This document shows positions 38,301 to 41,300 of a DNA stretch of 64,000 bases, piece after piece. A program made the translations under genes and the position numbers. The stretch spans positions 29,961,857-30,025,856 of the forward strand of contig CM054181.1 of NCBI GenBank assembly GCA_028829895.1, in the 5' to 3' direction. The notes beneath the pieces are model-generated. The model was given only the letters and a program-made list of their open reading frames with translations. It did no database searches and was not told where the DNA came from. Within the stretch, counting starts at the first letter, position 1, and the number at the start of each line of letters is the position of its first letter. The DNA comes from Sinotaia quadrata (lineage: Eukaryota > Mollusca > Gastropoda > Architaenioglossa > Viviparidae).

Positions 38301-41300
38301 CCCGAGTCTTAGAGTTCAATCAATGTCGTAGTGTTACCTAAATATCTTAGTGTTAATTCTAGTGTTACCCCAGTGTTTGAGTGTTACCAGTCTCAGGTAT
38401 TCCTCAAGAACTTTGCGTGCCATAAAAACCAAGAACAAACTGCAGGTAATTTTGTTTGATTGCCTTGAATTTCCCTTATAGTGGGGTAGAAACAGTTTTG
38501 GAGCAAAGACACCCTGGTAACCGAAACTATTTTTAAGACTGCACATCCCACTGCGCATGTCAGATAGAGCACTCCTATAGAAAAATATCATCTATAATAA
38601 ACTCACGCCTGCAATAAATTTGAATAAATAACTATTCGTGCAGGATTTCTGAAGAAGTGCATCCAACTTTATGAAACGACAGTGGTTCGTCACGGTCTCA
38701 TGCTGGTTGGACCAACTGTGTCAGGGAAAACGCAGGTAAGTTCTGTGCTGGTTGGACCAACTGTGTCAGGGAAAACGCAGGTAAGTTCTGTGCTGGTTGG
38801 ACCAACTGTGTCAGGGAAAACGCAGGTAAGTTCTGTGCTGGTTGGACCAACTGTGTCAGGGAAAACGCAGGTAAGTTCTGTGCTGGTTGGACCAACTGTG
38901 TCAGGGAAAACGCAGGTAAGTTCTGTGCTGGTTGGACCAACTGTGTCAGGGAAAACGCAGGTAAGTTCTGTGCTGCGTTGGGCCGACAGTCAGGGAAAAT
39001 GCAGGTAAGTTTCCTGCTGCATTGGACCAAAATGCAGGTAAGTTCTGCTGTGGATGCTTAGAACAATTTGCTAGAGTTGTGGTGGGGAAGTGCAATTCGT
39101 GAGAGCCGATGAAACAGATTACTGTTGAATTCCGTGTTTGAGTACATTGTAACTTACATTAGTGTTTCCAACTAAGGGGGGATAAGTCAAAAGATTTCAT
39201 GAGGTCTTTCTGAACACAGTGTTTTGATAAGTAGACTTTTCATACTGTCTGTTGGATTAACTGATTTCGTTTTAATGAGTAGGCCTGGTAAATACACAAA
39301 AAAGTAATTAAATACGGAAACAGCCAATTATTTGCAACGGCTACGAAGTTCTGAAACATATTATGTGTATGCATTTTTTAAGAGTATTGAAACAGGCAAT
39401 ATCAGGTTTTATTTTACACAGGCTCATGAAGTATTTCCGCGTAACATAGAATTTCTATTTTGTGTGCAGTGTTACGCAATGCTAAAAACAGGCCTGAACA
39501 CATTTATGTGCAATGTTACATAATGCTAAAACAAGTCGGTATACATTTCTGTGCATGTTACATAATGCTAAAACAAGTCGGTATACATTTCTGTGCATGT
39601 TACATAATGCTAAAACAAGTCGGTATACATTTCTGTGCAGTGTTACATAATGCTTAAACAGGCCGGCATACATTTCTGTGCAGTGTTACATAATGTTAAA
39701 ACAGGTCTGCATACATTTCTATGCAGTGTTACATAATGCTAAAACAAGTCGGCATACATTTCTATGCAGTGTTACATAATGCTAAAACAAGTCGGCATAC
39801 ATTTCTATGCAGTGTTACATACATACTAAAACAGACCGGCACATATTTCTCTGCAGCATTAAAAATAGAACGCGCATTAGGTGTATGTATTTTTTAAAAG
39901 TACAGAAACATTTCCTATCGCATTATTTGTATGTAGTTTTTCAAAATACTGAAATATGTCCTATCACATTATTTGTATGCATTTCTTAAAAACAGATCTT
40001 GTCCTATTATTTTTATGCATTTATTTAAATACCAAAATAGTCTTATGATGTTACTAAGCGTTGGTGCGAAGTTTTGAACTGTGTCACGACATAAAGTATC
40101 TGTTATAGTATAATAAGAACTGGAATAAAAATCATGTAGCATTCTTCATATGGTGTAACTAAGAACTGGAATAAAAATCATGTAGCATTCTTCATATGGT
40201 GTAACTAAGAACTGGAATAAAAATCATGTAGTATTCTTCATATGCAGTGTTATGAAGTGCTAAAAAAGGCCATGACATCATTGAAAGGGGAAGTGTCGCC
40301 GTCCGGAGCCTTGTTCGAGCCTGTCCATACATTCGTCTTGAATCCGAAATCCATCACCATGGGACAACTGTACGGAGAGTTCGATCTGTTTACTCATGAG
40401 TGGTAAGTATGAGTATTTCTCACATAGTAGTGCTCCACATGAGTGGTAAGTATGAGTATTTCTCTTCTTTTTCTTGGTCTCTAGCGTCCCGGTTTCAATG
40501 TGTGGTTGGATTTAAAATGTAGATTTACAGACACCAGTAACAGATTGAAGTAAATTAAATTCATAATCAAACTAACTCTACACTGCATAATTTCATGAAT
40601 TACCTTTAGCAACAATTTATATATCACCAAACGATCAGCAACCCATTATTAAACAACACCAGCAATGAACAATTCCAGAATCAAATAACCCAGGACCAGC
40701 CAATGTCAGTATCAAGTAACACAGCATGAAATGACTCGGCAGAACCTTTCAACCCAAAATCAAACAAGTCTGCACCAAGTTACTCAACATCAAACAACCC
40801 AACATCAGTTAGCCAAGCATCAAACAACATCAGCATTAGACATTATAAATTCACACATGAGTAATCCATAAATTATATAATTTTTATCATACACTTGCTT
40901 CTCTCTCATACATCATTCAAATAACTTTTCACATTTTTTTGTAATCTCGCAAAAATCTTGTACAATAAGTAAAATAAAGCACACACATTTCGGAATATGG
41001 TTCTCCTTATACTATTTCTCCCGATTCGATTGTAACAAAAGATTTATTTTAGTTTTACTGAAATAATTTCTGAATATAATTGACAGAGTCTGTCATACGT
41101 ACAAATTCGTTTACCTCAACATCAATGTAATTCGCTCCTGGGTATATCACAATCACAACGCACACAAACAATCGGAATGACAGAAAAGATTACAGCTTTG
41201 AATCTCTTCGCTGAAATGGAAAACTCAATAAACCAGGAAAAGAAAAACTAAAAGAACACAAGCAAGTCATTAGCAGTAGCAGTCGGATATAAAAAAATCA

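Follow-up and report, generated by a model that had tools for sequence, protein, structure and literature searches.

The tandem array at the AAA2 P-loop of a DNAH1 gene of the snail Sinotaia quadrata is best explained as a minisatellite that arose across an exon-intron boundary, a so-called mirage, with the first of its eight donor sites being chiefly used and the additional donors being silent, minor or non-productive; we assign this reading a probability of roughly three in four. The window, i.e., the whole stretch of DNA that was analysed, comprises 64,000 nucleotides, and all coordinates are relative to it, with negative numbers lying upstream. The parts of the array are the following:

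38701 to 39030, plus strand: whole tandem array as delimited by TRF (period 45, 7.3 copies, 95% matches), the first 35 nt of which are exonic
38736 to 38960, plus strand: five identical 45-nt intronic copies, each of which closes with a new CAG/GTAAGT donor
38961 to 39004, plus strand: decayed copy 7 of 44 nt, ending in the seventh perfect donor at 39005
39005 to 39037, plus strand: decayed and shortened copy 8 of 33 nt, ending in the eighth perfect donor at 39038

GTAAGT is present at positions 38736, 38781, 38826, 38871, 38916 and 38961 and is directly preceded by AAAACGCAG in each case. The five 45-nt intervals between donors 1 and 6 are mutually identical and can be read in frame as 15 residues without a stop codon. 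An earlier note on this DNA had described these six donors and five identical copies, and both the sequence and TRF agree with it; its total of six donors, however, has to be raised, as two more perfect copies of CAGGTAAGT are located at 39005 and 39038. The repeat unit consists of the last 35 exonic and the first 10 intronic nucleotides. As in mirages, each unit thus combines exonic and intronic sequence from one boundary, and the array adjoins an authentic boundary, since it starts inside the exon at 38644-38735. Copy 7 retains 39 of the 45 unit positions and copy 8, with its 33 nt, retains 27 of 45. Identity among the copies adjoining the exon gives way to decay in the distant ones, which reveals a polar decay away from the exon. 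The identity of the copies points to recent expansion or homogenisation; the earlier note had named recent expansion, gene conversion or selection. Counted on both strands of the whole window, CAGGTAAGT occurs eight times, always within the array, while 0.62 occurrences are expected by shuffling; none of 100 shuffles reached eight, and a chance origin was therefore rejected. A search of the 984-Mb assembly for an exact 30-mer of the unit located six occurrences, every one within this array, and this confinement led to the rejection of a transposed or dispersed repeat. The array looks like an intronic minisatellite that caught a splice site and not like a designed series of ATP-binding loops. 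The perfect identity of five copies could also be produced by a collapse or expansion error during assembly, and one amphioxus mirage was aberrantly assembled according to PMC3087553. Against such an artefact, which we consider extremely unlikely, the array spans only about 330 nt of a chromosome-scale assembly of 26 contigs and would fit into a single long read, provided that such reads were employed; moreover, two decayed copies flank the array, and independent similar arrays are present at other junctions.

The array is located between two exons of the downstream member of a gene pair:

38644 to 38735, plus strand: DNAH1 exon with the AAA2 P-loop at its end, ending in phase 0 (splice-refined tblastn against homologs and alignment to solved DNAH1 chains); "exon 22" is the label of the earlier note
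40248 to 40402, plus strand: next DNAH1 exon (splice-refined alignment to DNAH1 homologs)
about -78749 to -32512: upstream DNAH1 gene, aligned from residue 1560 onward
about -21127 to 115436: array-bearing DNAH1 gene, aligned to the full-length Babylonia protein

Comparison of a 242-residue exon stitch with solved heavy chains revealed DNAH1 as the top three of the best 60 matches listed (E 8e-115 to 1.6e-113), and the first match outside these three among the same 60 has an E value of 1.2e-87. Pfam detects AAA_6 and AAA_5 in the exon stitch. Judged by these matches, the gene is DNAH1, which encodes an inner-arm axonemal dynein heavy chain, and the array lies in its AAA2 module; the earlier assignment of the exon end to the AAA2 P-loop was borne out by the match to solved chains, the heavy chain being of the DNAH1 type. 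In a protein search, the best match of a 1079-residue query is from Mytilus (70%). For a longer query, Exaiptasia ranks best by bit score when AAA1-AAA2 is scored (80%), and Babylonia ranks best by identity at full coverage (88%), followed by Pomacea (85%). Valine at the fourth P-loop position (GPTVSGKT) is also present in Babylonia P0126, Pomacea P0124 and Littorina P0131 and is thus ordinary among relatives, so the idea of an unusual P-loop was dropped.

Alignment of full-length Babylonia proteins showed that two DNAH1 genes are arranged in tandem, the downstream one of which carries the array. The two copies probably arose before the divergence from Babylonia. The paralogs differ at 327, 201 and 965 sites of codon positions 1, 2 and 3, respectively, in 1727 codons, and this concentration at the third position indicates that the exons are under coding constraint. 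The matching intron of the upstream paralog has a length of 179 nt, starts with the donor AAG/GTAGTT and is devoid of an array. The median delimited intron measures 611 nt in the upstream gene versus 1482 nt in the array-bearing gene.

The AAA2 array is not the only one to cross a splice junction. TRF reports 163 rows for the window, and tandem arrays with a period of at least 15 cover 27% of it. TRF arrays with at least 5 exonic and at least 5 intronic nucleotides were defined as crossing arrays, and introns were delimited by splice-refined alignment, which yielded 66 introns in the array-bearing gene and 46 in the upstream gene; this intron table is partial, as introns scoring no higher than 14 were dropped, as were pairs with large reference gaps, and positions 64001-69000 (5,000 bases) read N. 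On this basis, arrays cross 9 of 132 junctions in the array-bearing gene (five donors and four acceptors); for the upstream gene, the figure is 1 of 92. The donors lie after -13604, -2619, 6365, 38735 and 93081, with periods of 60, 22, 35, 45 and either 30 or 32 nt, and the acceptors lie at 20282, 84955, 90437 and 110178, with periods of 56, 64, 56 and 54 nt. The array-bearing gene thus possesses crossing arrays in several introns and at both 5' and 3' boundaries, as is the case for mirages. Among the nine periods, which range from 22 to 64 nt, three are multiples of three, five are not and one is ambiguous, and hence they do not follow a frame rule. Crossing arrays and arrays that resemble a nearby splice site include the following:

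6347 to 6727, plus strand: donor-crossing array with a frame-shifting 35-nt unit and 10.9 copies, including 19 exonic nt in front of the donor after 6365
20003 to 20292, plus strand: acceptor-crossing array with a 56-nt unit and 5.2 copies, including 11 exonic nt at the acceptor at 20282
21413 to 21682, plus strand: array of units of about 68-70 nt that resemble the acceptor context at 21727 (TRF and alignment), 19 exonic nt aligned
39459 to 39856, plus strand: 43-nt array with 9.3 copies, sharing its intron with the P-loop array (TRF and alignments)
54647 to 54828, plus strand: array with a 53-nt unit that resembles the acceptor context at 54843 (TRF and alignment), 15 exonic nt aligned

The array at 6365 also decays outward, with alignment scores of 31, 29, 31, 29 and 31 for the near copies and of 23 to 13.5 for the far ones; it represents a second natural donor-competition array within the same DNAH1 gene. 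The units at 39459-39856 resemble the acceptor together with the initial 35 nt of the following exon, i.e., this array is acceptor-derived, and the donor context CATGAGTG/GTAAGTATGAGT of the exon at 40248-40402 has a single further copy 43 nt downstream (40438-40457). Beyond the downstream end of the window, arrays at 84751-85006 and 90244-90475 cross acceptors and contain 52 and 39 exonic nt, respectively, in nearly exact copies. The introns additionally hold many diverged minisatellites with units of 20-60 nt (e.g., 21973-22320 and 24199-24530), and open frames on the minus strand at 48439-49041 resemble what we take to be pieces of a retrotransposon reverse transcriptase.

Splicing of donors 1 to 6 to the next exon at 40248 keeps the reading frame open, and translation of these products confirmed that donors 2 to 6 are frame-neutral, as previously claimed; the neutrality ends after donor 6. 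Use of donor 7 (39005) adds 269 nt and leads to a premature stop, and the same is true for donor 8 (39038), which adds 302 nt (TAA at 39006). The frame-neutral and stop-free donors 2 to 6 would be compatible with regulated isoforms carrying the serial Walker A loops raised in the earlier note, in which these donors are used in some tissue and one to five extra P-loops alter motor regulation through AAA2; each inserted unit also looks like the strand and P-loop that immediately precede it. Such isoforms are nevertheless very unlikely. Two P-loop motifs within 30 residues are present in none of the 239 listed dynein heavy-chain homologs, which are of several types and some of which are partial. 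In addition, the paralogous intron lacks the array, the sister arrays obey no frame-neutrality rule, the distal copies have decayed into frame-breaking donors, and an insertion in the nucleotide pocket of AAA2 should disturb the fold. A device specific for Walker A was rejected, because no listed homolog repeats the P-loop and arrays cross other junctions too. A special tie to Walker A function is not supported, with five of the nine units not being multiples of three, and the frame neutrality of the 45-nt unit is a one-in-three accident. We consider it highly improbable that the spliceosome treats the array as a graded series of equal donors and that the snail thereby makes DNAH1 proteins with anything from one to six AAA2 P-loops, the number of which would follow the fast-changing copy number of the minisatellite; if true, the array would act on a ciliary motor as a molecular dial of recent origin that might be polymorphic.

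The eight donor 9-mers are all identical and match U1 perfectly, so none of them is weak, and donor 1 has the top score of the 112 donors to which a scoring matrix was applied. This equal strength counts against the use of the first donor. Where several donors are equal, splicing often favours the one closest to the intron's 3' end, and this preference, if it applied, would predict truncated products and thereby also argue against first-donor use. One could therefore imagine noisy multi-donor splicing, which would produce a ladder of transcripts, the products of donors 7 and 8 being degraded, those of donors 2 to 6 being minor and functionless and DNAH1 output being slightly lowered. The identity of the 9-mers fits this scenario, and so does the division into open products of donors 2 to 6 and truncated products of donors 7 and 8. 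A precedent is the human interferon-induced gene 6-16 (IFI6/G1P3), in which a minisatellite located at the 5' splice site reportedly repeats the donor, as in the snail, and gives multiple donors that are used in transcripts. Furthermore, a study of human segmental duplications reports that 66% of the tandem-repeat intron modifications also had repeat-retaining transcripts (PMC2812944), which implies that such arrays can affect splicing and speaks against the first-donor reading. On the other hand, amphioxus mirages were described without splicing disturbance in PMC3087553, and the 35-nt, 10.9-copy donor array at 6365 would do damage if donors were chosen freely, whereas the gene appears to be constrained. 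Noisy splicing is thus unlikely. That the first donor is chiefly used is inferred from two lines of evidence: free choice would be damaging, both at donors 7 and 8 and at the 35-nt array at 6365, and amphioxus mirages are reported to leave splicing undisturbed (PMC3087553 and PMC3902484).

The recurrence of splice junctions in introns was further compared with controls. The 40-mer across each junction was aligned both to the intron it belongs to and to 60 pieces of other introns with the same length, and success was defined as beating all 60. In the array-bearing gene, 29 of 132 junction 40-mers were successful (26 spanning the border); the upstream gene gave 7 of 92. Controls with reversed introns and reversed queries yielded 3/132 and 3/132 in the former gene and 1/92 and 2/92 in the latter, and the 24 exonic nucleotides alone were successful in 14/132 and 3/92 cases, respectively. 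Random intronic 40-mers beat all 60 pieces more often (138/359 in the array-bearing and 67/207 in the upstream gene). This version with Babylonia references replaced a first one on 38 introns (of 43 intervals, two were unsolved and three were set aside as doubtful), in which 14 of 76 junctions and 52 of 149 random intronic 40-mers had been successful. Array coverage is 0.11 at 0-10 nt from the donor versus 0.38 at 200-400 nt, and on the acceptor side it is 0.09 nearest to the junction versus 0.36 at 100-200 nt. Junctions are hit often, but less often than the intron interior, and no special attraction to splice sites is therefore needed. The capture of junctions is what a general process of intron minisatellites, combined with some selection, gives, and splice junctions are simply not spared by it.

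Triples of CAGGTAAGT with a spacing of 25-55 nt are found at 133 + 139 = 272 places genome-wide and those of the reversed pattern at 92 + 92 = 184 places, with overlapping triples inflating both numbers. This excess goes beyond a strictly sequence-blind process and leaves room for a mild donor bias. The excess over the reversed control, together with the top score of the first donor among the 112 scored, could be taken to mean that the array was selected as a splicing aid, in which many strong donors raise U1 occupancy and secure the recognition of a short exon. This idea is scarcely plausible, as the paralog manages the same exon with the weak donor AAG/GTAGTT and no array, and copies of junctions are rarer than background intronic repeats. 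Among the flanks of 20 other multi-donor arrays, those of two perfect-donor arrays, L028 (G000 C1:317171-317403) and L031 (C1:33706019), contain open frames ahead of the donors that look coding by eye, one of which ends with LLLVDTAGQ; a comparison of the L028 and L031 flanks with the PDB gave no match, and Pfam gave none above its cut-off. Of the 20 flank frames, 10 were compared with Pfam, and none of these 10 reached the cut-off.

Arrays of this kind are already known from the amphioxus mirages and from human 6-16; new are the taxon, the number of arrays within one gene and the controls. In PMC3087553 and PMC3902484, the mirages of amphioxus Adh3, the globin genes BflGb6 and BflGb9, troponin C and PGBD5 are described as minisatellite-like copies spanning boundaries, which carry AG/GT signals in many copies and are homogenised inside and decayed at the edge. 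The snail arrays share with them the tandem copies across exon-intron boundaries with donors or acceptors, the inner homogeneity and the decay at the edge. They differ in their mollusc host, the P-loop-bearing unit, the eight perfect donors and the presence of several arrays in one gene. The amphioxus units measure 10-72 nt in Adh3 and 150-160 nt in the globin genes according to the same sources, compared with 45 nt in the DNAH1 array, and these sources also document RNA evidence and length polymorphism in amphioxus, whereas the snail array is known from the sequence of one assembly. The multiplication of splice signals by tandem duplication across an exon-intron boundary is likewise described for human duplicated genes in PMC2812944, and intron gain by tandem duplication for a potato RdRp gene in PMC4974935. 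In contrast to these cases, the snail array lies within an existing intron, with no new intron or exon change shown. The AAA2 P-loop itself agrees with that of DNAH1 from other animals in exon content and site, but in all 239 listed homologs it is unrepeated, unlike in the snail array. No report of boundary-spanning minisatellites in molluscs was found in the open-licence literature searched; a Conus paper reports short repeats in introns only.

We propose that the array originated from a short tandem duplication across the boundary, caused by slippage or unequal exchange in an intron that was already prone to repeats. This event would have taken place after the duplication of the DNAH1 gene, and later rounds would have multiplied the copies. 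The exon copy may have been held constant by selection, while further expansion or gene conversion preserved the identity of the copies closest to the exon, and selection would remove only those arrays that are harmful to splicing. The spliceosome would chiefly use the first donor, giving rise to a mature protein with one AAA2 P-loop, and the extra donors would be silent or a source of minor or non-productive RNA. The DNAH1 array thus represents a natural experiment in choosing among eight identical donors, six of which are frame-neutral and two of which are damaging. Boundary-spanning minisatellites have been described mainly from amphioxus; counted here in a mollusc gene and compared with controls, they are frequent. 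If this is confirmed genome-wide, they would continually supply duplicate splice sites, and possibly also new introns and exons.
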